Positions 1,501 through 21,711 of a stretch of DNA of 22,532 bases are shown here, in pieces (within the stretch, counting starts at the first letter, position 1; each line of letters opens with the position of its first letter). The stretch spans positions 1 to 22,532 of IMG/VR virus record IMGVR_UViG_3300014720_000203. The stretch is one strand, 5' to 3'. The stretch comes from a virus. The notes under the pieces were generated by a model. That model made no database searches. It had not been told where the DNA came from and saw only the letters and a list, made by a program, of their open reading frames with translations. Position numbers and translations under genes: made by a program.

Positions 1501-1513
1501 ATTTGTTTTTTTT

Positions 1514-3356: not shown

Positions 3357-3363
3357 TTAGATA

Positions 3364-3391
3364 CAAATATACACCCAATCAGCCATCACAA
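3364..3391 (-). promoter_or_regulatory. Bacteroidota-type promoter (TTG, 17 bp, TATATTTG)
   Basis: Read on the minus strand, TATATTTG (3364-3371) matches the -7 consensus TAnnTTTG exactly, and TTG (3389-3391) lies 17 bases upstream at the -33 position. The -7 box ends 13-14 bases before the ATG of the glycosyltransferase gene, so the leader would be under about 10 bases. The -33 element overlaps the end of the upstream nrdA gene. It would start the glycan operon separately from the RNR operon. Confidence 0.6.
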
Positions 3392-5160: not shown

Positions 5161-5162
5161 TT

Positions 5163-5741: not shown

Positions 5742-5946
5742 TGATTTTTTTAAGTTGTTGTTGTGTCTCTGATTCTAAGAACTCAGAGTCCGTTTCAGTA
5801 ATGAACACTGCAAAGAACTTGCGCCCCTTGATAGTTACATCGGATGTATACACGCTGAGCATTTCAAGCTCATCCTCAAGCATTGAGTCACAGATATCAT
5901 CGACTAACTTGCGATATTCTCTTGGGTTCATTTGTTTTAGTTTCAT
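5719..5946 (-). CDS. Hypothetical protein, 75 aa, acidic
   Basis: The product is not recognised. It is a small, mostly helical, acidic protein ([14 protein letters not shown], then a short beta-like stretch [12 protein letters not shown], then a charged helix). No cysteines, membrane span or signal peptide are seen. It lies 18 bases downstream of nrdB and overlaps the collagen-like gene by 23 bases, so it belongs to the RNR transcription unit. Met6 is an alternative start. Tight packing and codon use like its neighbours support a real gene. Confidence 0.65.
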
Positions 5947-5964
5947 ATCTATAGTTTAAGAGTT

Positions 5965-6954: not shown

Positions 6955-7456
6955 TTTCTATTATTGTTTTTTTAAGTGTGTAGTGTGATATTGTTCTAAG
7001 TTCGTCTGTCGGTATCCATACAAACAAGTCCTCTCTGCCTCTCCTTGATTGCTTTAAGTAGGGGCCCTTGAACTTATCGTATACGGTTTCATCAGTGATA
7101 TTTGTTTCAACGAATGACGCTAGTAGCTTTCTATTAACGACAACCCAATCGAATTCAAATTCATAGGCGATGAAGTCAGCTCCACCGTATCCCCAGCCAG
7201 TTGTTCCGTAGGTGTTCTTGATTTCAAAGATAGCAAAGTCGTTGCAGTAATCGGAGTTTCTGTTCAATCTTCTCCTTGCTTTAACGTCTATCTTGACATC
7301 GTTGATGCACACATCCCAATGCTCTCGCATATCCTCGTGTCTTGTAGCCCTGCGAAACAGCTTGAATTTATCGGGGTAAGACAAAAGATAATCAGCAGTA
7401 AACCTAGTCTCTGCTGAAACTCCCTCCGCAATGGAGTTCGGATATTGGCTACGCAT
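6944..7456 (-). CDS. Putative PD-(D/E)XK-fold nuclease-like protein
   Basis: A 170-residue protein with a restriction-endonuclease-like pattern: E16 in the first helix (SAETRFTADYL), then HWDVCINDVKIDVKA, where D48, D57 and K59 would form the D...(D/E)xK catalytic triad, followed by strand-rich sequence (FAIFEIKNTYG, DWVVVNRKLL). Phages carry many such small nuclease-like proteins, some involved in host DNA breakdown or junction processing. No closer family is recognised, and activity is inferred from the motif only. It overlaps nrdB by 11 bases and its ATG shares one base with the stop of the upstream gene (TAATG). Confidence 0.6.
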   Translation of the reverse strand: MRSQYPNSIAEGVSAETRFTADYLLSYPDKFKLFRRATRHEDMREHWDVCINDVKIDVKARRRLNRNSDYCNDFAIFEIKNTYGTTGWGYGGADFIAYEFEFDWVVVNRKLLASFVETNITDETVYDKFKGPYLKQSRRGREDLFVWIPTDELRTISHYTLKKTIIENAI

Positions 7457-7674
7457 TATTCGCCCTCTACGTGTTCTCTTACGGCATCTCTAATGAACTC
7501 TAACTCTTTGCGTACAGATTGAATGAAGTCAAGCGTCAACTTCCGTACCGCTACCTCATCGACTAGTGGGTTTCCTTTTTCGTCGTGTAAACTTTCGTAC
7601 AGGTTTGTTGTGTTTTTTTGTACCTGATTTAGCGACATCAGGTAGTACTCGGATAGTCTCTTGTTCATTTCCAA
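7456..7674 (-). CDS. Hypothetical protein, 72 aa, helical
   Basis: Not recognised. The sequence is almost wholly helix-forming (RKLTLDFIQSVRKELEFIRDAVREH), suggesting a small helical bundle or oligomer. Met3 is an alternative start. It overlaps the 3' end of the upstream endonuclease gene by 119 bases in another frame and ends in a TAATG overlap with the next gene. The long overlap lowers certainty about the start, but a helical C-terminal half beyond the overlap and the coupling at both ends support a gene. Confidence 0.55.
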   Translation of the reverse strand: MEMNKRLSEYYLMSLNQVQKNTTNLYESLHDEKGNPLVDEVAVRKLTLDFIQSVRKELEFIRDAVREHVEGE

Positions 7675-8101
7675 GGAGTATGTTTATGGTTTGGTCGACT
7701 TGGGTTTGGTTCTTCGGGAGGAAGACTTTATAGTCTGACATTCCGTTGATTTGTAGCCAGTAGAGGAACAGCTTCCACCTGAGCGTGAATGTATGCTGCG
7801 AGGGGACGAATCCCTTTGTTTCGATGTAGAACTTTTGCTCGTGGGACACGAAGTCAGGCTTGTAGGTGATGGGGTACTCTTTGCTCCCAGTCCTGTCCAC
7901 CATCGTCTTAGAGCCGTTAGTGCATTTAAAATATAGAACTTCATTCCTAAACCCATCCATAAGCGTAATAGACTCAGGCTCATATTCAAAGATGAAACCA
8001 TTCTCTTTAAGCTTTTTATAGCAGTAGAGTTCGAGAGACGATTTAAGTTCGATACCATCGTATGTGTGTTTTTTATTTTTAACATTTTTGGTTTTAGCCA
8101 T
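7556..8101 (-). CDS. Phage endonuclease, endonuclease I / DUF1064-like (PD-(D/E)XK)
   Basis: A 181-residue protein with the layout of small phage endonucleases related to T7 endonuclease I and DUF1064. KHTYDGIELKSSLELYCYKKL contributes E24 on the first helix, YKPDFV contributes D83, and FYIETKGF contributes E94 and K96, giving the E...D...ExK site. LRWKLFLYWL follows as the expected helix. T7-like members cleave branched DNA such as Holliday junctions, a role that fits a gene directly downstream of the primase-helicase. The last 30 residues are very basic (KKHNKPVRKFTRRKRKPTSR), a likely DNA-binding tail, and are encoded in the overlap with the next gene. The start is 20 bases after the primase-helicase stop. 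Confidence 0.82.
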   Translation of the reverse strand: MAKTKNVKNKKHTYDGIELKSSLELYCYKKLKENGFIFEYEPESITLMDGFRNEVLYFKCTNGSKTMVDRTGSKEYPITYKPDFVSHEQKFYIETKGFVPSQHTFTLRWKLFLYWLQINGMSDYKVFLPKNQTQVDQTINILLGNEQETIRVLPDVAKSGTKKHNKPVRKFTRRKRKPTSR

Positions 8102-8121
8102 TGGCGAATATAGTCAAGCAG

Positions 8122-9939
8122 TTAGCTTCCTCCAAATAAAGTTCTACTTACTTCTCCACAATTTAAGGGGTTGAACATCAGGCTACCATTGATGTAGTAG
8201 AAGGTGTTTCTATCCGCATTGCACTCGAATCTTAGAGGCTCATTGAAAGATGTAGGGGAACCTCCAGTTTCTGTCTCACGAATCTTACGCACGTGCATCT
8301 CAACAGTTCGCCTCATCGCTATCTCAGGGTGCTGTATCTTTCTGTGAAACGTGAGGAAGTCGTCAGCTCTGTTCACGAACTTGCCACCTCCCTCTGTCTG
8401 CTCTGCGAATGGTGCGATAGGCAAACCATCGTCACCTTTCATACGCTGAGCCTCAGTGACAGCGTGGGCGTTAAGCCATACAGCCATCTTGTTGGCGTTT
8501 GACATCGTTAGCATTTCGCTGATAGCCTCGTAGTCGTATTCGTGTACACCAAGCGTGCTACCTTGCCTCATATCCCTTTTCAAGCTGTTGTATGGGTCGA
8601 TGAATACCCCATCAAGAGGTTCTTGCCTAAGCATCTTCTCCGTGAATATCAGGATATCATAAAAGGAATAGGTCTTGTTGTTTTCAATGACCGTGAAATG
8701 CTTCCTCACCCAATCGTAAGCTATCTTTCTTTCGTTAAAGGTCATAGACTCAACGCTTTTACCCATTGCAAAGGTCATCAGCTTCATTTTAACGGCTGCT
8801 GTCTTGTTCTCTGAGGTATACACCAGCCATCTCCATCCGTGCCTCATAGAGGCTACTACTTGCAGATACAATGCGAATGTGGTCTTGCCTATATTACTGT
8901 GTCCGTTGATGATGGTGAAGTTCTTCTTGAACCTCCAATGGAGGTCAACTTGCTCGATGCCAACGGAAAGACCTTGAGGTATCTCCCCCTCTGCGAACAT
9001 CGTAATCCATTTGTAGTCCTCTGAGTCGGAGGAGATGAAAGACATATCCCCATCGCTAATCAATAGCTCTCTACGCATCTTATCACGCTCATCCAATACA
9101 TTCTTGATTGGTAGCATCTTCCCTCTTTCAATACCATCCCTGATGGTATTTATAGCGGTGTGCATAGAGTCAATATCCTTCTTCTCTATCTCCCTAAGAA
9201 GAACCCTTACAACCTCCTCCTCTTCCATCATAGAGGCAGCTATGTACCCACCACAGAGTATTGATGCACGCAAAAGAACATCGTGCTTGCTTCCGTTCTC
9301 CGCTCTGCGAATCATACGGCAAGCGATGTTTAACTGCTCGTAGTCTGTAATCCCTGCTGTCTTTACCTCTATCTGCTGATTGTCAGCTTTCTCTGTTAAA
9401 AAGCCACCATAAGCCTCCGCATCATCTCTATAGACTAGCGCCTCATCGTGGCTAAAGAAACAAGCTCTAGATTCGTTTATCCCTGTTGAGTCTACCTCTA
9501 ACCCATAGTTGGCATCGTAGTAGCGAATAATGCTTCTGTAGTGGTCACGATGCCTTTCAGGGTTCGTGATACGTACAACAACCTTAACGCCTTTCCCTGA
9601 TGGGGATATAAAGCAAACAAGCGTGTGCTTATCTAGAGACAGATTTCTTTTTGCTTCCTCTGCATCAATCTTGTCAAAGTCAATTACCATCAACCCTGAG
9701 TGTTCTTGCAGAGACGAATCGTCCCTAGACAAAAAAACTCCCGAAAAGCATATAATCGGGAGTTGTTTTTTTTCATCCTTCGTAGCCTGACCGCTACGAA
9801 TCCTGTTAATAGTCGCTAAAGAAGATGTTTTCGGGGACCTTATATGTTCCAGTACTTGTCCAAGTGTTTGGACGTACGGTGTCTGAGTGTCCGTCAGGCT
9901 CTTGAATATCGTGACCTTCTTTTCTAGAATGTTGCTCAT
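8122..9939 (-). CDS. Primase-helicase: BT4734-like N-terminal domain plus DnaB/RecA-like ATPase
   Basis: A 605-residue two-domain replication protein. Residues 8-185 match the BT4734-like N-terminal domain, a Bacteroidota primase-type domain: acidic pair in VIDFDKID (D87, D89), ISPSGKGVKVVV (111-122) and NESRACFFSHDEALVY (155-170). Residues 310-600 form a RecA/DnaB-type helicase core with Walker A GHSNIGKTT (346-354) and Walker B LDGVFIDPYN (D448), ending with RxxDDFLTFHRK-type sequence. It probably synthesises primers and unwinds DNA at the phage fork. The start is supported because the family match begins at KKVTIFKS, residues 7-14. Its first 134 bases overlap the upstream DUF1599 gene. An intrinsic terminator (9731-9773) lies inside codons of about residues 56-70, which is highly unusual. 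Confidence 0.9.
   Translation of the reverse strand: MSNILEKKVTIFKSLTDTQTPYVQTLGQVLEHIRSPKTSSLATINRIRSGQATKDEKKQLPIICFSGVFLSRDDSSLQEHSGLMVIDFDKIDAEEAKRNLSLDKHTLVCFISPSGKGVKVVVRITNPERHRDHYRSIIRYYDANYGLEVDSTGINESRACFFSHDEALVYRDDAEAYGGFLTEKADNQQIEVKTAGITDYEQLNIACRMIRRAENGSKHDVLLRASILCGGYIAASMMEEEEVVRVLLREIEKKDIDSMHTAINTIRDGIERGKMLPIKNVLDERDKMRRELLISDGDMSFISSDSEDYKWITMFAEGEIPQGLSVGIEQVDLHWRFKKNFTIINGHSNIGKTTFALYLQVVASMRHGWRWLVYTSENKTAAVKMKLMTFAMGKSVESMTFNERKIAYDWVRKHFTVIENNKTYSFYDILIFTEKMLRQEPLDGVFIDPYNSLKRDMRQGSTLGVHEYDYEAISEMLTMSNANKMAVWLNAHAVTEAQRMKGDDGLPIAPFAEQTEGGGKFVNRADDFLTFHRKIQHPEIAMRRTVEMHVRKIRETETGGSPTSFNEPLRFECNADRNTFYYINGSLMFNPLNCGEVSRTLFGGS
9731..9773. terminator. Bidirectional intrinsic terminator inside the primase-helicase gene
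   Basis: A perfect 9-bp stem (9736-9744 aactcccga with 9756-9764 tcgggagtt) encloses an 11-base loop. It is flanked by a run of seven A (9731-9737) on one side and eight T (9766-9773) on the other, so it is an intrinsic terminator for transcription in either direction. For minus-strand transcripts it begins about 30-40 bases after the DUF1599 stop, the usual place for an operon end, yet it lies within the 5' part of the next gene. Confidence 0.85.
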
Positions 9940-10216
9940 CTTTTAAAACAATTTTAAGTAGAATTAAATAACCAATAAGGTCTGTGACCGTGTCCTCCGT
10001 GGAGTCGTTGATGCCTCTGTTCTTGATGCGGTTAAGCTTGTCATCAATCCTAGCGCATATAGACGCTCTTGGGGAGTTTGTGCTGAATATGTTTGATGGG
10101 TTTGTAGCTGCATCCCCATAAGCGGTGTTCTTTTCAAGGAGCAGAGACTCAACAGCTCGGCATTCCTCTACAATCTTTTCATTAGTACTCTTCATAGTAG
10201 TCCAATAGTTTGTCAT
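9806..10216 (-). CDS. DUF1599 / Nmad1 (nucleotide-modification-associated domain 1) protein
   Basis: A 136-residue protein. Residues 12-95 match the DUF1599 (Nmad1) family: LLLEKNTAYGDAA, RASICARIDDKLNRIKNRG and EDTVTDLIGYLILLKI. This family is an all-helical, MazG-like fold proposed, from gene neighbourhoods, to act in phage nucleotide or base modification metabolism; its exact reaction is unknown to me. The last 40 residues (polar, DIQEPDGHSDTVRPNTW) are an extra tail encoded in the 134-base overlap with the primase-helicase gene. Met8 (position 10195) is an equally good start and would cut the overlap with the upstream cyclotransferase gene from 35 to 14 bases. Confidence 0.82.
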   Translation of the reverse strand: MTNYWTTMKSTNEKIVEECRAVESLLLEKNTAYGDAATNPSNIFSTNSPRASICARIDDKLNRIKNRGINDSTEDTVTDLIGYLILLKIVLKDEQHSRKEGHDIQEPDGHSDTVRPNTWTSTGTYKVPENIFFSDY

Positions 10217-10544
10217 ACATCTCCCCCACCTGATACACCCAAGGGGTCATTTCTTCCCCTTCGGTAGTAACTACCTCGAGCTTCTCCCTTTCATAGAAGT
10301 GGGGATGCCCCTCAAGTGCATCAAGCGTTTTCAATCCCAAATCGTCCACAAGGTACAGCTCCATCTGTACAAAGTGTCCATCTTCGTGTGTTCCTTTTAT
10401 CAAGTATGGTAGGCCACTTATGCACAATCGCCTCGGCTGTTTTGTCTTAGCTTCTGCTACGAACTCACCGCCAGCATATTGCATAACTCTATGGTTGCCC
10501 TTATCTTTCTTTAGTGTACCATACACTCCAACAAGATGCTCCAT
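10182..10544 (-). CDS. Gamma-glutamylcyclotransferase (GGCT/AIG2-like)
   Basis: A 120-residue protein of the GGCT/AIG2-like fold, which cleaves gamma-glutamyl amides and releases 5-oxoproline. The substrate-binding loop VYGTLKKDKGNH (residues 7-18) and the catalytic glutamate E78 in LDALEGHPHFYER are both present, as is the family strand MELYLVDD. Length is typical for a single domain. Such proteins are known partners of amidoligases and class II amidotransferases in predicted peptide or metabolite modification systems, and both partners are encoded 9-11 kb upstream in this window. TAATG coupling links it to the small gene before it. It is probably cytoplasmic; its substrate is unknown. Confidence 0.88.
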   Translation of the reverse strand: MEHLVGVYGTLKKDKGNHRVMQYAGGEFVAEAKTKQPRRLCISGLPYLIKGTHEDGHFVQMELYLVDDLGLKTLDALEGHPHFYEREKLEVVTTEGEEMTPWVYQVGEMYDKLLDYYEEY

Positions 10545-10730: not shown

Positions 10731-10973
10731 TTAGGGTTTGGGGGGTTGAGGTAGTGGCATCCAATGGGTGATTTCTTCAGCAGTACAAAATTCATCAATT
10801 GAATCAAAATACCATCTAATCTGCTTTTTATCATTAGGTGGATATTTAGCCCACCAAGAGAGTACAATCCTATCGTTAACGCTAATTATTACCGACACAA
10901 ATTCCTTTGGCATTCGGTCTTTACAGGCTATCCACTTCATTGCTTCGGGGGGATTTTGGTGTAAATTTTCCAT
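10731..10973 (-). CDS. DUF551 domain protein
   Basis: An 80-residue protein with the whole-length pattern of DUF551, common in phages and prophages: MKWIACKDRMPKEF (WIPVxxRLPE-type opening), VSVIISVNDRIVLSWWA and the ending EITHWMPLPQPPKP (VTHWMPLPEPP). The family's biochemical role is not known; it is a small cytoplasmic beta-rich protein. It lies 10 bases downstream of the lipoprotein gene. Confidence 0.83.
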   Translation of the reverse strand: MENLHQNPPEAMKWIACKDRMPKEFVSVIISVNDRIVLSWWAKYPPNDKKQIRWYFDSIDEFCTAEEITHWMPLPQPPKP

Positions 10974-10983
10974 TATTTAGTAC

Positions 10984-11226
10984 TTAAAATGTGTATTCAA
11001 ACTTAGCAATAGTGTCCCCTTTACAAACACTTCTGCTTACGTTTATTATCCCGCAATCAGTATGGGCCTCCCATATAGGAGAAAATTGGAGGGTGCTTTT
11101 TTGCCCTACGCCATAAAATACTACGCTGTCAATTAAACATTTCCTAATAACTAGTTTTCTTTTTTTTGGAGGAGTAAAATCGCAAGACAGCAAGGCAATT
11201 GATAAAACCACAAAAATCTTTTTCAT
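10984..11226 (-). CDS. Small secreted lipoprotein
   Basis: An 80-residue protein with a classical lipoprotein signal: two lysines, a hydrophobic core and a lipobox LLSC with C15 as the lipidation site (KKIFVVLSIALLSC). The mature part is about 65 residues with three more cysteines (C30, C58, C68, numbered from the start), which could allow disulfide bonding in the periplasm. No family is recognised. Small phage lipoproteins of other systems (such as Llp of T5) block superinfecting phages, and that role is a hypothesis here. It stands in the middle of cytoplasmic-function genes and has a weak promoter-like element just upstream, consistent with a self-contained cargo gene. Confidence 0.72.
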   Translation of the reverse strand: MKKIFVVLSIALLSCDFTPPKKRKLVIRKCLIDSVVFYGVGQKSTLQFSPIWEAHTDCGIINVSRSVCKGDTIAKFEYTF

Positions 11227-11237
11227 ATTTAAGTTAT

Positions 11238-11945
11238 TTAAAATTTGCCAAAGGTAAGCTCCCCATCGTTGTAAACCAAGTATTTCCCTTGGTGAATTAC
11301 GTCAATAAGAAAGTATCTTCCTCCTGTGAACTTCTCTAGCATCCCAATGCTAGCATCTGCACCCACTTGAGTATGACCAACGACTTGTCTGTAGGCTTTC
11401 TTTAATGAGCTGTTTTTATTAGCCCTCATAAGTTGTTCGGGTCGAATCCATATCGGAGTCTGATAGGTATCACCACCTGTAGGGTCTAGGCCTGTGAACA
11501 TAAACTTCCTCGGCTGAACGATAAACAGATTGTTGATTTCGCTAACGATGTCTGCGTCCTCTGAAATATCGTTGTCTTTGAGCCATTCTGCTGATACCCC
11601 AGCGTGGGTACAAAGCAAGTCATCAAGCAAGAAAGCCATCTGAAAAAGGTCTTTGTTGTCTGTTAGCAAGTGGTTGATGGTTGGATACATCTTCGGCTGA
11701 AAGCCAGTATAACGCTCGTAGTTGAACATATAGTGGAAGTCGTGGTTTCCTATGAGCAGAATCGTATTCGGGATTCTACGCTTGTACTCAAGAATATCCA
11801 TAAAGTTCTCAAGTTGCTTCTCTGAGCTGATGTCAAGGCTATCAAAGTAGTCCCCGATGAATACTACTTGGTCGGGGGATTCTTTTGTGATAGCGTCTTT
11901 CCATAGCGTTCTTCCGTGGGTGTCCCCTAGTAGTATTGTTTTCAT
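11238..11945 (-). CDS. Calcineurin-like metallophosphoesterase / protein phosphatase-like
   Basis: A 235-residue protein with the complete metallophosphoesterase motif set: D8-T-H10 (LLGDTHGR), D32 (FIGDYFD), N67-H68 (LIGNHDF), H114 (CTHAGVS) and H191 (VVGHTQ). These bind two metal ions and hydrolyse phosphoesters; the order and spacing fit the Ser/Thr phosphatase-like branch, with lambda phosphatase a well-known phage relative. The start at 11945 is chosen because the protein opens directly with the first motif strand (MKTILLGDTHG); an in-frame extension upstream lies over the preceding gene. The substrate is unknown: host or phage phosphoproteins, or nucleotides. It lies 22 bases after the upstream gene. 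Confidence 0.9.
   Translation of the reverse strand: MKTILLGDTHGRTLWKDAITKESPDQVVFIGDYFDSLDISSEKQLENFMDILEYKRRIPNTILLIGNHDFHYMFNYERYTGFQPKMYPTINHLLTDNKDLFQMAFLLDDLLCTHAGVSAEWLKDNDISEDADIVSEINNLFIVQPRKFMFTGLDPTGGDTYQTPIWIRPEQLMRANKNSSLKKAYRQVVGHTQVGADASIGMLEKFTGGRYFLIDVIHQGKYLVYNDGELTFGKF
11249..11279 (-). promoter_or_regulatory. Possible promoter for the lipoprotein gene (weak)
   Basis: On the minus strand TACCTTTG (11249-11256) fits TAnnTTTG, with TTG (11277-11279) 20 bases upstream, a little wider than usual. It lies within the end of the phosphatase gene, 22 bases before the lipoprotein ATG. It could be a chance match in coding sequence. Confidence 0.25.
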
Positions 11946-11967
11946 AATCGCAAAATATGATATGTTT

Positions 11968-12219
11968 TTAGGGATTGTATTCATCTTGACACCATATCGG
12001 TGTTCTTTCTCCAACGTAAGCTGACTCCACGTTGTACTCAAAGTATTCAATCGCATCGTCTGCCCCCATCTCTCTCTCAAGGATAGCTACGGCCTTTGTA
12101 ACCGAATACACAACTCTAAAAGAGTTTCTGTCAAAGCCAATGATGGCATCGTCAAAGCCATCTGCGAAAAGTAATTCTTCGTCCCCTGATAGCTCTACAA
12201 GTAACTCTCGTCTTGTCAT
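11968..12219 (-). CDS. Conserved phage hypothetical protein (AYVGERTP motif)
   Basis: An 83-residue protein. The segment DGFDDAIIGFDRNSFRVVYS, then AVAILEREMGADDAIEYF and EYNVESAYVGERTPIW, matches a small conserved protein seen in many unrelated phages and large viruses; its function is unknown to me. The start at 12219 is chosen because ATGA overlaps the stop of the upstream membrane-protein gene, and the longer in-frame extension is only that gene read in another frame. It is acidic and soluble. Confidence 0.72.
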   Translation of the reverse strand: MTRRELLVELSGDEELLFADGFDDAIIGFDRNSFRVVYSVTKAVAILEREMGADDAIEYFEYNVESAYVGERTPIWCQDEYNP

Positions 12220-12617
12220 CCCTTTATGAATCGTTTTAAAATCGTTTCCTTTGCAACGCCCACCCATAGGTGACCAAAGAAAAACGCAAACCCAAGAACA
12301 GGGTCGATGAGTCCAAAACCCCAACAGATTGCAAGGATTTTCCCCATCTGAAAGCAATGCTCCGCATCCGTTAAGAACACAAGGAATGTAGAGCTGTATG
12401 GGAATCGTTCTGCGTGAGGCAAGGATATCCCAAAGTGATACCATTTAGGCTTGTAGGATAGAGGGTTGTTGTTTGGACCAAGGGCCCATTTGTTTCGCCA
12501 AGACTCCCTTGAGTTCCAATGCGTTAGCTTACCGCTCCAGTTCCCAACGATGCACTCGTCCTCAAGCTCATTGAACAGCATAAAGAGAAATCCTAATAAG
12601 AAGATAGATAGTATCAT
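12216..12617 (-). CDS. Membrane-associated hypothetical protein, 133 aa
   Basis: The first 15 residues are hydrophobic (ILSIFLLGFLFMLF), forming an N-terminal membrane anchor or uncleaved signal. A second hydrophobic stretch (ILAICWGFGLIDPVLGFAFFFG) lies near residues 94-115. Between them is a polar region rich in aromatic residues (SWRNKWALGPN, KWYHFGISLPHAERF). This gives two membrane spans with a loop of about 75 residues. No family is named with confidence. It is coupled on both sides (TAATG with the tiny membrane gene upstream, ATGA with the gene downstream), so a membrane complex with its upstream neighbour is possible. Confidence 0.72.
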   Translation of the reverse strand: MILSIFLLGFLFMLFNELEDECIVGNWSGKLTHWNSRESWRNKWALGPNNNPLSYKPKWYHFGISLPHAERFPYSSTFLVFLTDAEHCFQMGKILAICWGFGLIDPVLGFAFFFGHLWVGVAKETILKRFIKG

Positions 12618-12769
12618 TAGATTACATTTAGAAGTTTAAGTATAATTAAGAACATAGCACAACCAAAGAGTATCGAAGATAGCGATATCGCTGTGGCTGT
12701 TATCAACCAAATAGCAGTATCTACTCTGTGGTTTGCTTTTTTTCGCTTACGTCCATTCTGTGTTTCCAT
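12617..12769 (-). CDS. Tiny single-span membrane protein, 50 aa
   Basis: A 50-residue open frame from ATG at 12767-12769 to TAA at 12617-12619. The N-terminus is strongly basic (METQNGRKRKKANHR) and is followed by one long hydrophobic segment (AIWLITATAISLSS then ILFGCAMFLIILKLL), either one long span or a tight hairpin. The positive-inside rule puts the N-terminus in the cytoplasm. Its stop shares bases with the next ATG (TAATG) and its start overlaps the upstream gene by 49 bases. The coupling and membrane-protein composition support it despite its size. Function unknown. Confidence 0.62.
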   Translation of the reverse strand: METQNGRKRKKANHRVDTAIWLITATAISLSSILFGCAMFLIILKLLNVI

Positions 12770-13071
12770 TTTATTTTTTCGCTTAGTTGTTTGAGTTGTA
12801 CGATGTCACCATCTGTTGCATCCCAGAAGTCCTTAGACTCCAGAAGAATTACATTGGCGAGTGGCTTGTTAGGGGTGAGCAACAAAACGTGGGTCTCCTT
12901 TTCGTGTCTCCTGTGATTTGGTATCTTGGCAGTTGAGCCTTCATACGAACCAATCTTGACATTAAGTAAAATTTTTTTGTCACCTTTTTGAAACCCGAAA
13001 AAAGGGGATTCCGTGTATTTCAACGAAACCCCCCATTCGAGTGCTACCAAGAACGCTACAGCTTCTTCCAT
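12721..13071 (-). CDS. Hypothetical protein, 116 aa
   Basis: Not recognised. The N-terminal half is beta-rich (WGVSLKYTESPFFGFQKGDK, KILLNVKIG), the middle contains HVLLLTPNKPLANVILLES, and the end is charged. No membrane span or signal. It begins one base before the stop region of the SSB-tailed protein gene, so it is in the same run as the recombination genes. A nuclease-like fold could be imagined from the alternating strands, but no catalytic motif is convincing. Confidence 0.65.
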   Translation of the reverse strand: MEEAVAFLVALEWGVSLKYTESPFFGFQKGDKKILLNVKIGSYEGSTAKIPNHRRHEKETHVLLLTPNKPLANVILLESKDFWDATDGDIVQLKQLSEKIKWKHRMDVSEKKQTTE

Positions 13072-13332
13072 TTAGAACGGCAAGTCAGATTGGGGAGCTG
13101 CTGACTGATGAGCCGATTGAGCAGCCTTTGGTTCTAACAAGACTGCGTATGGACGCTTGGGGTCACGACCCTTGCGGATACGTACTTTGACACGTCCGTT
13201 TGCATCTGCCTTCTTCAAGGCTTCTGTAATCTCCGTGGCTGTCATAGATAGCGTGTATCCTGTGAATTCATTTTCGTACTCTTCATAGAATACATTTCCG
13301 AAATAGTTTGGCTTTTGGTTTTCTGTTGTCAT
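13072..13332 (-). CDS. Short protein with SSB-type C-terminal tip
   Basis: An 86-residue protein that ends SAAPQSDLPF, after a low-complexity Ala/Gln/Ser linker. This is the pattern of the C-terminal tail of bacterial single-stranded-DNA-binding proteins, which recruits helicases and nucleases through the final D-x-P-F. The body (residues 9-68) is beta-rich and contains VKVRIRKGRDPKRPYAVLLE, basic enough for nucleic-acid binding. It is shorter than usual SSBs and no clear OB-fold motif is recognised, so it is either a reduced SSB or another fold carrying the same interaction tip. It lies directly downstream of the exonuclease and annealing genes, which fits. Confidence 0.6.
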   Translation of the reverse strand: MTTENQKPNYFGNVFYEEYENEFTGYTLSMTATEITEALKKADANGRVKVRIRKGRDPKRPYAVLLEPKAAQSAHQSAAPQSDLPF

Positions 13333-13342
13333 AACTGGTTTT

Positions 13343-14143
13343 TTAAAGGATTTCTGTGATTAGATGTTGGTTGATGTCTTTGTTCTCAATGAAGTACTCT
13401 CTGTAGGTTTTGGTAGCGTTTTTTACAAGCTGTTCCCCTAGCTTGTAGAATTCTTCGGACACACTATATATCCCAACGTCTTGCGTTGCTTTGTCAATAA
13501 CGATGAAGTGGAAGTTCAGATAGTGAACACCGAATATCTTGCCGTAGATATACACTTGTGATGCGTATCCGTACTTTTTCGCACTATATCGGAATCCCTC
13601 GATATCAGAAGTAGTTTTCAAATCGTAGATGCTACCATCTTCGTGAACCATATCTGCTTTGGCTCTAAATGGCATACCTGCAACATAACCAAAGTCAGCT
13701 TTCTCGTAGGAGCAATTCATAATGATGTCTTCCACACGTTTGCAGTTCATTAGCGAGTTCATCATATTTTGAGCGTTGCGGAACTCGTCTCCTGTGATTA
13801 CTAACTTGCCTGGGTTAGCTACTTCAGCATCCTTGAAAGATTTAGTCAACTTGCTTTTAACATCCACAATCTCAAAGGAGTCCTGAACTTTGTTTGGCTC
13901 AAGGACAAGCATATGCAGAAGCTTTCCGTTGGTGAGTGCAGATGAAGACTCGCTACCATTATTTAGATAGCGTTGATAAGCCTTCGGTGATTGGTTAAGG
14001 AGTTTTACAGAAGAAGATGATAGTGATGCCTTACCAAGATACCCATAGTAAAACTCATCATCACCCATACGCTCTAGCAATTCATTGTAAGACCATTGGC
14101 TTCCATCAAGAAGCACGAACTTGGCGGGAATAACTTCTGTCAT
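13343..14143 (-). CDS. DUF3799-type PD-(D/E)XK exonuclease (RecE/Cas4-like)
   Basis: A 266-residue phage exonuclease-like protein. LTNGKLLHMLVLEP (70-83) holds the family histidine H77 on the first helix; FRAKADMVHEDGSIYDLKTT (159-178) supplies D164 and the D174-x-K176 part of the site; YASQVYIYG (193-201) is the Q-motif found in RecB/Cas4-like nucleases. DUF3799 proteins are the nuclease half of phage single-strand annealing recombination, resecting double-stranded ends for the annealing protein encoded just upstream. ATGA coupling with that gene supports the pairing. The start follows the upstream gene's stop overlap directly. Confidence 0.87.
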   Translation of the reverse strand: MTEVIPAKFVLLDGSQWSYNELLERMGDDEFYYGYLGKASLSSSSVKLLNQSPKAYQRYLNNGSESSSALTNGKLLHMLVLEPNKVQDSFEIVDVKSKLTKSFKDAEVANPGKLVITGDEFRNAQNMMNSLMNCKRVEDIIMNCSYEKADFGYVAGMPFRAKADMVHEDGSIYDLKTTSDIEGFRYSAKKYGYASQVYIYGKIFGVHYLNFHFIVIDKATQDVGIYSVSEEFYKLGEQLVKNATKTYREYFIENKDINQHLITEIL

Positions 14144-14727
14144 TTGCTTTTCTTAATTAAAGATTGGAGTGACTTTACTTGCGATTCAGTAAATAGGCTA
14201 GAAACTTTACCCTCCTCATACAACTCCCCTTGCTTATCTAATATCATTTTAAGCTTATCATAGGTTGGGTTAGCCTTGATGTAGTCCATAGCCTTCTGAA
14301 ACATTGCGTCAGGTTGGAGTGCTGCGGGTTGCGTCTCCTGTGATTGCGTCTCCTGTGATTGTTTGGTGGGGAGGTTTTGCTTGGCGATAGCCATCGCCAC
14401 CTCATCAGCCGTTGCGATAGAGGTCTCAATGCCGATACCCAAGTTACCCAAGCACCGACCCCAAGCCGAACTTTCGCAGTTCTCAACGTACGATGTCTTG
14501 TTAATCATAGAGGATGTTCTGTCCTCCTGAGCGTGACCCACGGCTACAACAATGCCCTCTGCATTGCGAATGGTTGCCCTTACGATGCACGATTGGTCAT
14601 CGTAGGACACAAGGTCTGACTCCATAGTCCACCCCTTGTACTCAGGTGCAGTACGGAAATAGAGAATGCGTTGAGATACCTCAACATAGGCTTTCCCCTT
14701 GATGTTGGTTGTTTTGAACTGATGCAT
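14140..14727 (-). CDS. Single-strand DNA annealing protein (Erf/Rad52-type)
   Basis: A 195-residue protein of the phage annealing type. Conserved segments include GKAYVEVSQRILYFR (11-25), the GW before ESDLVSYDD, VRATIRNAEGIVVAVGHAQE, and the block NKTSYVENCESSAWGRCLG, followed by GIGIETSIATADEVAMAI. These segments are widely shared among Erf-like recombinases. It should anneal complementary single strands in partnership with the exonuclease whose gene overlaps it (ATGA). The linker (about residues 120-135) contains a duplicated SQETQ. A promoter-like -7 box lies 28 bases upstream. Assignment to annealing proteins is confident; the exact subfamily is less so. Confidence 0.82.
   Translation of the reverse strand: MHQFKTTNIKGKAYVEVSQRILYFRTAPEYKGWTMESDLVSYDDQSCIVRATIRNAEGIVVAVGHAQEDRTSSMINKTSYVENCESSAWGRCLGNLGIGIETSIATADEVAMAIAKQNLPTKQSQETQSQETQPAALQPDAMFQKAMDYIKANPTYDKLKMILDKQGELYEEGKVSSLFTESQVKSLQSLIKKSK
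14330..14359 (-). repeat. 15-bp direct tandem duplication in the annealing-protein linker
   Basis: Two exact adjacent copies of tgcgtctcctgtgat (14330-14344 and 14345-14359) encode a repeated Ser-Gln-Glu-Thr-Gln in the flexible linker. Being in frame, it changes only linker length. Confidence 0.9.
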
Positions 14728-14752
14728 AAAATTGGGTTTAAATTGAACTGAA

Positions 14753-15247
14753 TTACAAAGATACTTGACTTTCCATCTTTTGCACTACATCGTTATGAAC
14801 ATTGATGCACATTCGCCTATCCTCCATAGCCTCGTAGAATGCACCGAAGTCATTCTTGACCTCTGCGTCATAGGACAATAGGTTGTCCATTGCCCTGATG
14901 GAGTTAATGATTGTGGAGTGGTGTCTGTTGAGCGTGTAGCCTATAGAGGTCAGAGTCCATCCTTGGAGGTGTAGGTACTTGCTGATAAAGTGCCTCGCAA
15001 AGACAAAGTTGTTTCTCCTATCATCAGAGCGAATCTCATCCATAGTAAAGCCAAGTAAGTCAACGGCTGACCTTACCAAAGAGGATTGGTTCTCCTCATC
15101 TATTTCATCTATAATCATAAGCACGGAGTTAACAGATAGAATTTTGTCATCTATGTCTGCTCCAAGTTTGTTTGCGTATTTGGTTAAGGAATGGCGAATA
15201 GAATCCCTTTCCCAAGCAAAGCGTGGGTTCAATCTGTTTGTTTTCAT
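14753..15247 (-). CDS. DnaA domain IV-like DNA-binding protein
   Basis: A 164-residue protein whose second half resembles the DnaA-box-binding domain: RRNNFVFARHFISKYLHLQGWTL-type sequence (positions 77-99, with R-x7-R and ISKYL helix), SIGYTLNRHHSTIINSIRAM (101-120) in place of the DnaA signature GxxFGRDHTTVxHA. The aspartate of RDH is His here. No Walker motifs are present, so it lacks the AAA+ ATPase. It may bind DnaA boxes at a phage origin, or compete with or recruit host DnaA. The start at 15247 is chosen for its leader (TTTAAACCA then ATG), and because the longer frame lies over the gene upstream. Replication and recombination genes follow it. Confidence 0.8.
   Translation of the reverse strand: MKTNRLNPRFAWERDSIRHSLTKYANKLGADIDDKILSVNSVLMIIDEIDEENQSSLVRSAVDLLGFTMDEIRSDDRRNNFVFARHFISKYLHLQGWTLTSIGYTLNRHHSTIINSIRAMDNLLSYDAEVKNDFGAFYEAMEDRRMCINVHNDVVQKMESQVSL
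14756..14763 (-). promoter_or_regulatory. Possible -7 promoter box (TATCTTTG) before the annealing-protein gene
   Basis: TATCTTTG on the minus strand fits the Bacteroidota -7 consensus TAnnTTTG and lies 28 bases before the ATG. No good TTG is found 17-20 bases further upstream, so this is a half-site match only. Confidence 0.28.
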
Positions 15248-15251
15248 TGGT

Positions 15252-15509
15252 TTAAATTTGTTTAAGGTGCGACTTATCGGAGTCAAAGTCATAGCGTTCC
15301 ACAACCCCATCTGCGATAATTAAAAAGAGTTCTCCTCTCCTTATGGGTTTGCCGTATAGCAAGACCCCATAGAAATGCCCATCATCATCGTATTCAACCT
15401 CACCATCTTCCATCAGGTCAACGATAGCGACTGCGGTGGACTCCCGACCATCGTACTTGATAGCCGAATAGATATTCCCATCTGTTTCGTTTAGTAGTTT
15501 GATTATCAT
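15252..15509 (-). CDS. Hypothetical protein, 85 aa, acidic beta-rich
   Basis: Not recognised. The start at 15509 is chosen because ATGA overlaps the upstream stop; a start 24 bases earlier is possible. The protein has alternating strands (STAVAIVDLM, GHFYGVLLYG, ELFLIIADGVVERY) and an acidic loop EDGEVEYDDDG. No membrane span. It ends five bases before the DnaA-like gene. Confidence 0.65.
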   Translation of the reverse strand: MIIKLLNETDGNIYSAIKYDGRESTAVAIVDLMEDGEVEYDDDGHFYGVLLYGKPIRRGELFLIIADGVVERYDFDSDKSHLKQI

Positions 15510-15835
15510 TGCTTTGGTTGAATTAATTTCCAATTATCTTGTAGGTAAATGGGGTAGGTCTTGTATTGCTTCTCACCAACCTTCCTCCCCCATAGCATAC
15601 CATTATCGTGCTGAACAACCTTGAAGACCCCCAAATAAGACTCTATCGTGTCACCTACACCAAAGGAGTACTTATGTACCCCCTTGATGTAGTAAGCGTT
15701 TCGTAGAGCCTCTGAGAGCCTTCTCTGTGCATTCAGAATTTCAAGTATGCAGTCTTCAATCTGTTGTTTTGTGGTTGATTGTAGGATTGCCTGAGAGCCT
15801 TGCTCAGACAGAGCCTTGAGTTCATCTATCTTCAT
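15506..15835 (-). CDS. Hypothetical protein, 109 aa
   Basis: Not recognised. The first half is helical (TTKQQIEDCILEILNAQRRL then SEALRNAYYI), the second half beta-rich with an SH3-like flavour (GVGDTIESYLGVFKVVQHDN, MLWGRKVGEKQYKTYPIYL). It is coupled by ATGA to genes on both sides, which supports start and stop. Soluble and presumably cytoplasmic. Confidence 0.68.
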   Translation of the reverse strand: MKIDELKALSEQGSQAILQSTTKQQIEDCILEILNAQRRLSEALRNAYYIKGVHKYSFGVGDTIESYLGVFKVVQHDNGMLWGRKVGEKQYKTYPIYLQDNWKLIQPKQ

Positions 15836-15969
15836 TTGGATTTCTTTTTTAAATACTCCCTATAAAGAACTGAACAGATTGCAATTCGTTGAGACTCGTT
15901 GGGGTAGCGTTTCCGCATAATAGCCATTGCGATACGCATAAATTGGCTCATTTCGGTAGCATTATACAT
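15832..15969 (-). CDS. Hypothetical small protein, 45 aa
   Basis: A 45-residue basic protein (MYNATEMSQFMRIAMAIMRK then RYPNESQRIAICSVLYREYL). The segment YPNESQRIAIC resembles a short motif seen in small phage proteins, but no function is known to me. The start at 15969 overlaps the upstream stop by eight bases; the longer in-frame extension is the upstream gene in another frame. Its stop overlaps the next ATG (ATGA). Confidence 0.6.
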   Translation of the reverse strand: MYNATEMSQFMRIAMAIMRKRYPNESQRIAICSVLYREYLKKKSK

Positions 15970-16237
15970 ACTCGTTAAAGGGTATAGTTCTCGCCATTGC
16001 CGTAGCCTCTGTCCGCTTGTACGCATCGGGGGGTTGTGGAGACCCCCACTCGCTTGGCTTGTTTGCCGTTTGCTGAGAAGCAAGGGCGAAGTTATCAATT
16101 TCCAAGGACAAAGTCAAGTTTCTGAGCCTTGAGTTTTCCGCAGACAGAATGTGGAGTTCCTCCTCCATTGTTTCTATGCGGAGGCGTAGGTAGTCAATAA
16201 GTGATTGGGCGAATGCCCCTGTTGGGTAGGTTTTCAT
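15962..16237 (-). CDS. Coiled-coil protein, 91 aa
   Basis: Residues 10-55 are a heptad-like helix (SLIDYLRLRIETMEEELHI, then SAENSRLRNLTLSLEIDNF), a likely coiled coil for dimerisation; the C-terminal third is Pro/Ser-rich and polar. No family recognised. The start is supported by a leader identical to that of the gene at 16495-16719, and both proteins start MKT. Confidence 0.68.
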   Translation of the reverse strand: MKTYPTGAFAQSLIDYLRLRIETMEEELHILSAENSRLRNLTLSLEIDNFALASQQTANKPSEWGSPQPPDAYKRTEATAMARTIPFNEYV

Positions 16238-17347: not shown

Positions 17348-18256
17348 TTAAGGGAGAGGGTCTTGTTCAAGGCTTTCGGTGGTGTGCATTAGCCTCAGTA
17401 TTGCTTCAAGGTCTAACTCAGAGTTGTTAGCAACTATTTCACGCCAACGCCTATTTTGATAGGCTTCAGAAAGTGGGGTACTTGCATTGTCAGACCAATT
17501 GCTACGAACTACGCCACTTATATTATTAGGGTTGAGAGTTCTCCCTCCCGAACAACGAATTAGTGTGTCTGTTGGTGGAGGTTGTGGTGAATAAATGTCA
17601 TCCAAATTTCTCCAATGGTCAAACAAGTGTCTCCAATAGTTATAGCCTCCACGAACTCTAACGAATTCGCAATGGTTTAAGACCATTGATGCAGACTTGT
17701 AATTGCTCAGGTGACCAAGGAATTCACCAACATTGTTGCACTTAAAATTGCAGTCGGCAGATTGAACAAGGCGTTCATTCAATACATTCATCCGATGGCT
17801 CAGGTGAGGCAAGATTGTCTCAGCAATGTAAGTCGGTATACCACCCATAACGTGTCCAAATGGGTCAGGGCATACGTCAGAAATTACATTACCATCAAGC
17901 AAAGCGTAGTTCATTACATTGTCATTTATTAGCCTTGAGGTAATGTAGTTATAGGCTATCTCGCTTGGTACATAACACTTGTTGGGGAGTCTATACACCT
18001 TTGGTGAGGTGAAAACCACGAAACGATGTTTCTTGTATAGAATGTCCACCTTTATCCGTAAATACTTGAGTTTACAGATTTCTGATGTTGGGTTGAGCAA
18101 TGGGATGTAAGAGTTCTCCTCCCTATCCGATATCCAAGTTATCGTTCTGCGGTAACTATTCGCTCTTTGCAGTCCGTTTGAGGCCACGAATTCATCTATT
18201 GAACCCAACCATTCTTTTGCCTCTTTTTCCGTTTTGAATTTTAAGTCTATCGTCAT
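17348..18256 (-). CDS. Hypothetical protein, 302 aa, paralogue of the next gene upstream
   Basis: No known family is recognised. Residues 1-215 align with the 216-residue protein encoded at 18253-18903: shared opening (EWLGSIDEFVASNGLQRAN against AWLQKLRDFVESNGFDGAN), TW-S-D before ENSY, SEIAYNYITSRL against EEAYTFITKSL, and GIPTYIAETI against SMPTHIADLV. The extra C-terminal 85 residues are polar, Arg- and Asn-rich, and unlike the partner. There is no membrane span or catalytic signature. The start is supported by the ATGA overlap with the partner gene and by the aligned N-terminus. Confidence 0.75.
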   Translation of the reverse strand: MTIDLKFKTEKEAKEWLGSIDEFVASNGLQRANSYRRTITWISDREENSYIPLLNPTSEICKLKYLRIKVDILYKKHRFVVFTSPKVYRLPNKCYVPSEIAYNYITSRLINDNVMNYALLDGNVISDVCPDPFGHVMGGIPTYIAETILPHLSHRMNVLNERLVQSADCNFKCNNVGEFLGHLSNYKSASMVLNHCEFVRVRGGYNYWRHLFDHWRNLDDIYSPQPPPTDTLIRCSGGRTLNPNNISGVVRSNWSDNASTPLSEAYQNRRWREIVANNSELDLEAILRLMHTTESLEQDPLP

Positions 18257-18903
18257 TGGTTTTGAATTAAATGTCCGTTGCCCTCAAATGCCGTGTGAAT
18301 GCCTTCCCAAAAGGACTGACCCTCTCTTGTCTCGCTCCAACAGAATCTGTTCACCAACCACGCCTGAGAATCTCCGCTCTTGCAGATTTCTTTGTAGGAG
18401 TCAATATCTGAAAAGAGCCTTAACGCAAAGAATTGATTGTTCATTAATTCCTCGTTGCTATTCAGCCTTTCTTTTACAAGGTCAGCAATGTGAGTGGGCA
18501 TTGATGCAAGAATCAGTTCAGTAGGCTGAGGGATTTCGGAGGTGTCGCTATCAATGAATCTTTGAATCTTACCCGATAGGAGTGACTTGGTGATGAATGT
18601 GTAAGCCTCCTCAGGGGTGTTGTAGTTGTAGTTTGAGTCTCGGTCAGAGAACGCTAATATGAACTTAAGTTTATCTTCTCTAACCCGAATTACTACGCAT
18701 CTATTTTGAAAGTACTCGTCAGACCTTTCTATGCCCCTTCGGGTGATTGCGGTATAGCATCTGTCATCTTCATCGGAGAGCCAAGTGACTCTATTTGATT
18801 TGTAGTTTGCTCCGTCAAAGCCGTTTGACTCAACGAAGTCTCGTAGTTTTTGCAACCAAGCCACAAATTCATTGCTTGATGCGAATGGAATTCTAATTAT
18901 CAT
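18253..18903 (-). CDS. Hypothetical protein, 216 aa, paralogue of the next gene downstream
   Basis: No known family is recognised. It is related along its length to the N-terminal 215 residues of the 302-residue protein that follows it, and the genes overlap by four bases. Identity looks low to moderate, so the duplication is old. Features: strand-helix opening (IIRIPFASSNEFVAWLQKL), TWLSDEDDRCY, IRVREDKLKFILAFSD, a helix EEAYTFITKSLL, and a Trp-containing end (QAWLVNRFCW, SFWEGIHTAF). The tandem pair suggests a two-subunit complex or a diversified pair. Its leader resembles that of the 77-residue membrane gene before it. Confidence 0.75.
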   Translation of the reverse strand: MIIRIPFASSNEFVAWLQKLRDFVESNGFDGANYKSNRVTWLSDEDDRCYTAITRRGIERSDEYFQNRCVVIRVREDKLKFILAFSDRDSNYNYNTPEEAYTFITKSLLSGKIQRFIDSDTSEIPQPTELILASMPTHIADLVKERLNSNEELMNNQFFALRLFSDIDSYKEICKSGDSQAWLVNRFCWSETREGQSFWEGIHTAFEGNGHLIQNQ

Positions 18904-19229: not shown

Positions 19230-19251
19230 TGGGGGTCAGTCAAGACCCCCA
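19230..19251. other. GC-rich hairpin over the amidotransferase stop codon
   Basis: tgggggtc (19230-19237) pairs with gaccccca (19244-19251) over 8 bp with a six-base loop that includes the stop region of the amidotransferase gene. No T-run follows on the minus strand. It could be a transcript-end stabiliser or a weak terminator. Confidence 0.5.
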
Positions 19252-20090
19252 TACAAGTCACTCATTGTCTCTGCAATACCATTGCGAATAGCCTTGCGGT
19301 GGTTAGCCTCAAAATTCTTCACGGCTTCTAAGTGCTTGTCTCTGCCCTCTATAGTGCCGTAGCCGTTGTAAGAATTCTTCTGATACCCCGTAGCCAAGGG
19401 GAGTTCGGGGGTTCGTTTCAGCCAATTGCCCCTTGAATCCTTGTACCAACCTTGTTCCTCCCACTTGGTCTCCCAAGCCGTTTGTCCCTTGCCGTAGTTT
19501 GACTTGTTGGATACCTTGGTGTTGCCGTACCAAACGTAGTCTTGACGTTCAGCATAGGAATGGTTGGAGTACCAAGTGTCTTTGGCTTTGTCCCAATGCC
19601 CAAGGGACTCGTTGAGAATTCTGAATTCACCACGATTGTCCATAAGCACAACCTTGTTCGTACCACCAAGCAACTGCATAGCGAATCCACGAACACCTTT
19701 GTGGTCAATGAACTGAACATTTTTGGGTCTGAAGTTACCAAGGAGTTCAGCGAATTCCCTTGTGTCTGAGATACGATTGTCACCAAGTCCACGGATAATT
19801 CCATTATGGATGAGAGTAACCTTGCCGTGAGTCACCTCGTGGGGGTGGAGCATATCCTTACCCATTCCGTGGGTGGCTATGCGAAAGTGGAGCATAAGAG
19901 GTTTGTCTGAGATAGCACGGATGTACTTGTACTCTTCGTAGAAAGAGTCAAAGGAGGTGGACTCGTGGTAAGAGCGAATCTCACCACCATCAATGTAGCC
20001 GATACCTGCTCCGTGGTTGTTGTTGTCCCAACAATTCTTGAGGGACTTTTTGGAGAGGACGGATGATTTGTTAAGAATAGCAATACACAT
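19236..20090 (-). CDS. Class II glutamine amidotransferase (Ntn hydrolase)
   Basis: A 284-residue protein starting MCIAIL, so C2 becomes the N-terminal nucleophile once Met is removed, as class II amidotransferases require. Glutaminase motifs follow: NNHGAGIGYIDGG (24-36), HFRIATHGMGKDM (68-80, with the substrate-binding Arg), LIHNGIIRG (93-101, oxyanion Asn-Gly) and SDTREFAELL (108-117). These liberate ammonia from glutamine for a partner enzyme. The start at 20090 is chosen for Cys2; 47 in-frame codons upstream lie in a structured non-coding gap and would bury the nucleophile. C-terminal to about residue 180 is a polar, Trp/Tyr-rich tail not matched to a synthase. The adjacent upstream gene encodes an amidoligase, the expected acceptor. 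Confidence 0.88.
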   Translation of the reverse strand: MCIAILNKSSVLSKKSLKNCWDNNNHGAGIGYIDGGEIRSYHESTSFDSFYEEYKYIRAISDKPLMLHFRIATHGMGKDMLHPHEVTHGKVTLIHNGIIRGLGDNRISDTREFAELLGNFRPKNVQFIDHKGVRGFAMQLLGGTNKVVLMDNRGEFRILNESLGHWDKAKDTWYSNHSYAERQDYVWYGNTKVSNKSNYGKGQTAWETKWEEQGWYKDSRGNWLKRTPELPLATGYQKNSYNGYGTIEGRDKHLEAVKNFEANHRKAIRNGIAETMSDLYGGLD

Positions 20091-20235
20091 AATTGAAAAG
20101 GGTTGAAAGGGTTTGAAATGAAATAAAAAAAACAGATTGAAAAATGTTTGGGGGTGATGTTGAGAGAAACCAACCAAGGGGTAGCCAAGCCTTCCCAAAC
20201 CATAGGACAAGGCTACCCACAAGGTCAGCAATAAC
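20091..20235 (-). other. 145-nt structured non-coding gap between amidoligase and amidotransferase genes
   Basis: The largest gene-free stretch in the window. It holds an 8-bp stem (gggtagcc 20179-20186 with ggctaccc 20211-20218) with an alternative inner pairing, an eight-A run near 20120 (T-run on the transcript), and a GGGTTGAAAGGG-type leader next to the ATG. Frames inside it are not convincing as genes. It may be a leader, processing site or attenuator. Confidence 0.55.
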
Positions 20236-21711
20236 TTACGCTAACTTGGATGTAATGGCGGTGGTGGAGAACCTACCCACAACCTCAGAGCGAATGGATG
20301 AGCCAACTGAAGTCCACGCTTGTTTCATACGCTCAAGTAGAACGGATTGACGCTCAGGACTCACAAAAGATTTGGCTGAGTCACCTTCAAGCAGAGAACC
20401 AAAGAGATAGGTGAGTGCTTGTTTGCGTCTCAGTTTGTCAATGTTGTAGTAAACCGATAGCATCTTGTTCAGTTTGGTGTCATTGAACATAGCCTCTGCG
20501 ACTTGGTGGTAGTGGTTGAACTTATTAGCGTCAATAGACTTGGCTATCCAACGAACTAACTTGAGCCTCCACTTGAGTTCATCCACATTGGTGACTCCCG
20601 ATGGGATGCGAATCTCCACGGAACTACCCTTGAGGTGTATTGCTCTTCGTGATTGGTTATCAATCTCACTCTTGGTCTGTACCCCTGAATATATACCCGC
20701 CAACCTACCTTCGTACAAGGCGAATAGCATTGGGATGAAAGGGTATAACTTATCAAGCAAGTCCTTTGACCTGATGTCTCTATGGGAGAGAGTGATATGC
20801 CCTCCGCATTTCTTAGACTTGTTGGCGTTGATTGCCCACTCAAGCCTATCAAATTCAGCGTGTTGGGTCTTGGTGTCCATAAGGTCAAAGACAGGGGATA
20901 CGAATTCCACCCCAATCTCAGGGTGCAAAGAGCCATCCCTCTCCGCAACCCAACCACCACCCAAGATACAATTCATCCGACAAGCCTTGTTCCGTGCGGT
21001 GCGGTCATCTTTCTCCACCTCCCAACCTACACGCCAAGCCACGGAGGAGTCATTCAGTTTGGAGGAATCGTGGTGTCTCCGTGCTTGTCCGTGATACCCT
21101 GCAAGGTCAGGTGGTGTAGCGTGGTTGTCAAAGGTCTCCTCATTTTCAAAGAACACTTGTCCGTGAGAATCCATCCGCCCATCTTTCCACTCTCCAAGGT
21201 CAGCATCCCCAAAGTAGGTGAAGAAACCATCAAGGGTACGAATCTGCTTAATCGTTCCATCAGCATAGCACAAAGACCTATGACGATTGGTGCGTCTGCC
21301 TCTGCTCAATTCCACAAAGGGGAGGGTGACCCAAGACCCATTCTGAGGGATGTGGATGAGGTAATCTTCGTCCACCCCATTGAGGTCATAGGTTATTTCG
21401 TTGTTACGAAAAACTAAATGTCCGTTGACTGCGACACCAAGACCCTCAGAGAAATTGAAGCCTTGTTGGTAGTAGCGTTCAAGACCAAGTGCGGTGGCCT
21501 TTGCGTCAGAGACTTGGTATCTCTTGGGGAGGTAGCAGAAGACCTCCCTTGTTGACCCATCGGAGCAAGGGGCGGTGGCGAGGATTCTCATATGCTTGGA
21601 GGAGTCTCTTACCACCGATAGAGGTAGCCAAAAGTAACCAAGTTCGGGGAGGTATTGGCGAACTGCCGTTGCCTCATCAAGGGTGCGGTTGGTGAAAGGA
21701 TTCTTAATCAT
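20236..21711 (-). CDS. Putative amidoligase (COOH-NH2 ligase, PF12224-like)
   Basis: A 491-residue protein. The C-terminal two-thirds carries the amidoligase pattern of the glutamine synthetase / gamma-glutamylcysteine synthetase-like fold: VGWEVEKDD (228-236), GGWVAERDGSL (252-262), GVEFVSPVFDL (267-277), KCGGHITLSHRD (301-312), ALYEGRLAG (331-339) and VEIRIPSGV (365-373). E231/E233, D259, E269 and E366/R368 are likely metal/ATP-binding residues. Such enzymes join a carboxyl to an amine using ATP. The first 220 residues are a separate region of unknown function, which may recognise the substrate. It is followed, after a 145-nt gap, by a class II amidotransferase gene, an arrangement known for this family. 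A T-rich leader with TTTAAA precedes the ATG. Confidence 0.85.
   Translation of the reverse strand: MIKNPFTNRTLDEATAVRQYLPELGYFWLPLSVVRDSSKHMRILATAPCSDGSTREVFCYLPKRYQVSDAKATALGLERYYQQGFNFSEGLGVAVNGHLVFRNNEITYDLNGVDEDYLIHIPQNGSWVTLPFVELSRGRRTNRHRSLCYADGTIKQIRTLDGFFTYFGDADLGEWKDGRMDSHGQVFFENEETFDNHATPPDLAGYHGQARRHHDSSKLNDSSVAWRVGWEVEKDDRTARNKACRMNCILGGGWVAERDGSLHPEIGVEFVSPVFDLMDTKTQHAEFDRLEWAINANKSKKCGGHITLSHRDIRSKDLLDKLYPFIPMLFALYEGRLAGIYSGVQTKSEIDNQSRRAIHLKGSSVEIRIPSGVTNVDELKWRLKLVRWIAKSIDANKFNHYHQVAEAMFNDTKLNKMLSVYYNIDKLRRKQALTYLFGSLLEGDSAKSFVSPERQSVLLERMKQAWTSVGSSIRSEVVGRFSTTAITSKLA

Follow-up and report, generated by a model that had tools for sequence, protein, structure and literature searches.

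A predicted amidoligase-glutaminase gene pair conserved across viral genomes, with a gamma-glutamyl cyclotransferase as an optional companion

Our analysis of a 22.5-kb virus record from IMG/VR (22,532 nucleotides; referred to as the window) revealed two adjoining genes which are retained together in nearly all related viral loci: a predicted glutamine-synthetase (GS)-fold amidoligase and a predicted class II (Ntn) glutamine amidotransferase (GATase). We consider it likely that the two proteins form a two-subunit, glutamine-dependent amide synthetase, an estimate that covers the enzyme and not its target. Both genes lie on the minus strand, as does a gamma-glutamyl cyclotransferase (GGCT), the third ORF named in a preliminary description of this sequence. 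New here are the near-absolute count for the pairing, the optional and sometimes fused GGCT, and a ligase that Pfam and PHROGs overlook. Predictions of phage amidoligase systems go back more than ten years, and no paper cited here demonstrates a substrate for one; the obligate two-gene core with its optional GGCT represents a minimal set that is open to expression and assay.

Results

The ligase gene (20236 to 21711, minus strand) encodes 491 amino acids from an ATG start, with a catalytic domain predicted at approximately residues 200 to 491. The assignment of this ORF to the amidoligase fold, originally made from the letters alone, was borne out by GS-type matches of the structural model, by PF12224 matches of homologues and by invariant GS-type residues, and we conclude that the protein is a predicted GS-fold amidoligase (COOH-NH2 ligase). 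In the AF2 model, residues from about 200 to 491 mostly exceed a pLDDT of 90, and a Foldseek search with this model returned gamma-glutamylmethylamide (GMA) synthetase (E 2.3e-5, probability 1.0), glutamine synthetase and the depupylase Dop as the top solved structures. Whole-chain TM-scores were low (about 0.2-0.3), partly because the N-terminal 190 or so residues are unfolded in the model, and the fold assignment therefore rests on the Foldseek E-value, the residues and the profile match taken together. For the last of these, hhalign matched the ligase family to its amidoligase counterparts in phiEco32, LUZ24 and StenR_269 at 96% probability (E 2.6e-9). Across an alignment of 66 sequences, E231, E233, G267, E269, C302, G303, G304, H305, R336, E366, R368 and R382 are invariant, and E231, E233, E269, H305, R336, E366 and R368 follow the active-site order ExE...E...H...R...ExR; we take these to be equivalent to the GS active-site residues, in the order of the GS superfamily. 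A role for C302 as catalytic nucleophile is improbable, since a Chitinophaga copy of the ligase has Ala in its place.

The family is under-annotated: the window ligase has neither a Pfam nor a PHROG match that counts. A search with PF12224 gave no match to it even at E=1, whereas 19 of the 66 aligned homologues match this profile (best 3.2e-7), so that we claim Amidoligase_2 membership at the superfamily level only. Scanning IMG/VR with the single ligase protein likewise gave zero matches; as such a scan is insufficient, relatives were gathered from IMG/VR by alignment-based searches. PAZ_4 and other weak Pfam matches were taken as chance.

The first 200 or so residues of the ligase (21112 to 21711, minus strand) were modelled by AF2 with a pLDDT below 50 and are weakly conserved among relatives. 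This region had been reported as unmatched to known domains, and it still is. Many ligase relatives carry acidic and aromatic repeats of the type YYHxDDxxYYxE here, and zinc-ribbon-like Cys clusters occur in the N-termini of the distant relatives L002, L004, L005 and L006; no CxxC motif was found in the corresponding region of the window ligase. The simplest reading of these sequences is that of a putative accessory binding region whose zinc ligands were lost in most members.

The adjoining gene (19236 to 20090, minus strand; 284 amino acids) had been described as an Ntn amidotransferase, from an ORF of 331 amino acids whose TTG start at position 20231 was set mechanically. The identity of the ORF stood, with GlmS-type profile and fold matches, but the start did not. 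The enzyme begins at the ATG at 20090, 145 bp past the ligase stop, where the protein opens with MCIAIL. Ntn enzymes need such a start, with Cys directly after Met, and M1 and C2 are invariant in all 60 aligned GATase relatives. Also invariant among the 60 are H68, R70, T73, G75, H82, N96, G97 and D109, and the same alignment contains the glutamine-binding pattern HFRxATxG, HNG and D. Against PF13522, the window GATase scored 17.3 bits (E 0.005), below the cut-off of 27, and 56 of the 60 relatives match this profile at E<=0.1. Moreover, the window protein matches phrog_25883 (2e-7), the family profile retrieves the GlmS glutaminase (8e-7), and the structural model, in which residues 1 to 180 are mostly above a pLDDT of 90, matches the GlmS glutaminase structure 1xff (E 4.8e-8). 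The GATase has a poorly conserved C-terminal tail that terminates in a helix (residues 247-281). Residues and model together identify the gene next to the ligase as a predicted class II glutaminase with Cys2 as its nucleophile and GlmS-type glutamine-binding residues.

The ligase and the GATase form an obligate unit. Among 80 viral loci collected from IMG/VR through the GATase family alone, the ligase lies immediately 5' of the GATase in 79, and in the one remaining locus the contig, 3 kb long, begins 61 bp before the GATase ORF. The gene order is fixed, and the two genes mostly overlap or sit within about 50 bp of each other; in the window they are separated by the gap given above and do not overlap. 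The pair is also retained in 13 of 16 relatives from bacterial genomes. The GATase profile was absent from 36 random viral records, which were contigs picked by a meaningless 15-mer and were used as controls because a GH19-like lysin query gave only three contigs, 93-100% identical. Over 76 partly dereplicated neighbourhoods, only the ligase and the GATase recur in nearly all, and no other gene family occurs in more than about 30%. Ligase-GATase-ligase arrangements or duplicated pairs are found in L021, L027, L028, L035, L036 and L041, the last with a second ligase after the GATase and a second GATase.

The pair is located upstream of replication and recombination genes. Downstream of the GATase, the window carries two tandem ORFs (17348 to 18903, minus strand; 302 and 216 amino acids) without a family match, which are paralogues according to their mutual identity of 24.7% (E 2e-14). 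The closest relative, L008 (IMG/VR 3300042554_000772; ligase 52% and GATase 69% identical), has a broadly similar gene order, but instead of two paralogues a single related ORF follows its GATase (10823-11719). No relationship was detectable between these paralogues and the genes without known function in the LUZ24 and phiEco32 cassettes. In 15 of the 76 neighbourhoods, GroEL-like genes precede the pair on its upstream side (for example at 214-1842 in L003), in some cases together with a GroES-like gene.

The predicted GGCT (10182 to 10544, minus strand; 120 amino acids, GGACT/AIG2-like) proved to be real, with 65.9 bits against PF06094 (cut-off 22.8, E 6.2e-18) and a match to phrog_2520 (7.5e-20). 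A three-gene system had been proposed; the ligase-GATase part of that proposal holds, but the GGCT is not a fixed member, as only 14 of the 50 records that have the pair or, for StenR_269, a related cassette encode it. Many pair-bearing records of over 55 kb are without it, and we therefore regard the GGCT as a frequent accessory and not as part of the core. These long records without a GGCT, and the distance of about 8.7 kb between GATase and GGCT in the window, would also fit a GGCT that is present by coincidence, as a phage gene or one derived from a host, with no connection to the pair. Several findings make such a coincidence decidedly unlikely. In two phages, MW202828 (L003) and L096, the GGCT is fused to the GATase, which indicates a real link between GGCT and pair; in L083 it follows 43 bp after the GATase, and in phiEco32 and LUZ24 it is clustered with the other cassette genes. 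Furthermore, none of the 36 random viral records contains a GGCT (Fisher p 0.0002 against the 14 of 50; p 0.002 once close duplicates are removed, with relatedness only partly corrected). In L008, the GGCT is found at the same distance of 8.7 kb downstream of the pair.

Discussion

The preliminary description linked these genes to the amidoligase systems of Iyer, Aravind and colleagues, and rightly so, to judge from two papers that cite that work (PMC10580990 and PMC11318856). The same enzymes are contained in phage peptidoglycan-modification cassettes, for which an action on peptidoglycan has been offered as a hypothesis (PMC5498523; PMC11945000). Like the window, the cassettes of phiEco32, LUZ24-like phages, PSA-HP1 and RIO-1 combine an amidoligase adjoining a class II amidotransferase with a GGCT in the same genome and a location amid replication genes. 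The ligase and GATase of phiEco32 and LUZ24 are nevertheless distant from those of the window and were aligned here only through profiles. In addition, these two phages carry a COOH-NH2 ligase (PF14395) and an annotated RimK-type ATP-grasp ligase. PF14395 matches in phiEco32 and LUZ24 but neither in the window, which is a fragment, nor in 46 viral relatives, and the pathway of the window may therefore differ from that of the published cassette. A search with a RimK/ATP-grasp model gave no match here, but the same model also missed LUZ24 and found phiEco32 only weakly.

A bare amidoligase-GATase pair has already been reported in OM43 phages, where MEP401 and MEP402 carry the same two genes in the same order as the window (PMC10580990). 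Identities to the window are 18-19% for the ligase and 33-34% for the GATase, the MEP401/MEP402 ligase differs in having a Cys-containing N-terminal region, and a GGCT was not found in MEP402.

In the mechanism that we propose, the Ntn glutaminase would use Cys2 to convert glutamine to glutamate and ammonia, and the ammonia would be handed to the GS-fold ligase, which would activate a substrate carboxylate with ATP as an acyl-phosphate and convert it to a carboxamide. Our data establish the folds, the residues and the pairing of the genes; the coupling or channelling between subunits and the reaction are what we infer by analogy from the GS and GlmS families, ammonia is the presumed amine and the target a presumed one, and an amine other than ammonia could be used if the glutaminase acts separately. 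Where a GGCT is present, it might act in an accessory step in which gamma-glutamyl-amine groups are taken off or recycled as 5-oxoproline. The earlier suggestion, of a phage able to add and take off amide or gamma-glutamyl tags, is plausible as chemistry. MurT-GatD, a cell-wall amidating enzyme, has a Mur-ligase fold and a class I GATase fold where the window pair has GS and Ntn folds. It offers a functional analogy only, in that a separate glutaminase feeds a ligase which amidates a cell-wall carboxylate (PMC5871853; PMC3267633).

By this analogy, the target may be a free carboxylate of the host peptidoglycan stem peptide or of its precursor, and the amidated wall would then differ in a way that acts against competing phages or wall hydrolases. 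We favour a cell-wall peptide tentatively, at roughly somewhat under even chances, because the published peptidoglycan-modification cassettes share these enzymes. It is possible, if doubtful, that the pair instead modifies a side chain or the C-terminus of a host or phage protein or a small peptide, or produces a small metabolite of the amide or gamma-glutamyl type, in the service of host takeover or anti-defence. GS-fold relatives include Dop, with its isopeptide chemistry, as well as GMA synthetase, the zinc-ribbon-like N-termini of distant relatives could bind a macromolecule, and one bacterial copy on a conjugative element lies near E2- and ThiF-like genes. However, this linkage was seen only once, and the 76 neighbourhoods revealed neither a peptide tag nor a gene for a candidate substrate that is conserved next to the pair.

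We consider it highly unlikely that the carboxylate sits on phage DNA or on a nucleotide precursor, as part of a hypermodification evading host nucleases. The chemistry has a precedent in the phage enzymes CmoX, which carboxymethylates cytosine, and CmoY, which then ligates glycine to the product, and one CmoY cluster includes a glutamine-hydrolysing domain (PMC12783734); the position of the pair upstream of replication and recombination genes would also suit such a role. CmoY, however, is of the asparagine-synthetase type and not of the GS fold, no C5 cytosine methylase was found in the window or in L008, and the 76 neighbourhoods have no base-modifying neighbour in common. Matches to C5 cytosine methylases in other pair records are scattered and mostly weak. 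Some other target altogether seems unlikely. We also rate as unlikely the broader idea that the bare pair could be a self-sufficient amidation system, placing a new amide mark on wall, protein or DNA against rivals or defence, with the GGCT, sometimes fused to the GATase, as its eraser.

Besides phages, at least one conjugative element of Bacteroidota carries the bare pair. The best relative from a bacterial genome is found in Chitinophaga, beside the conjugative-transposon genes TraM and TraG. In this Chitinophaga eiseniae locus (L223), the pair is flanked by Prok-E2_D and ThiF-like (PRTRC-like) genes and by TraM/TraG (2172-8753 and 10862-15970), and its position between them places the pair on a non-phage mobile element as well. 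The window itself suggests a Bacteroidota host: a Shine-Dalgarno-like motif precedes only 3 of its 31 start codons, fewer than at random positions (18%), and its leaders are A/T-rich, for example CCCTTTTCAATT-ATG, as is usual in Bacteroidota.

Elsewhere in the window, PHROG matches identify a ribonucleotide reductase, with the large subunit at 3379-5160 and the small subunit at 5965-6954. Between these two genes, which together span 3379-6954, lie another small ORF and a collagen-like ORF (5163-5741) in which GPT/GAT/GPQ triplets follow one another over a long stretch. Moreover, a cluster at 251-3356, which may serve in glycan modification, contains genes for a methyltransferase-like protein (997-1500) and a glycosyltransferase (2184-3356) along with two more ORFs.
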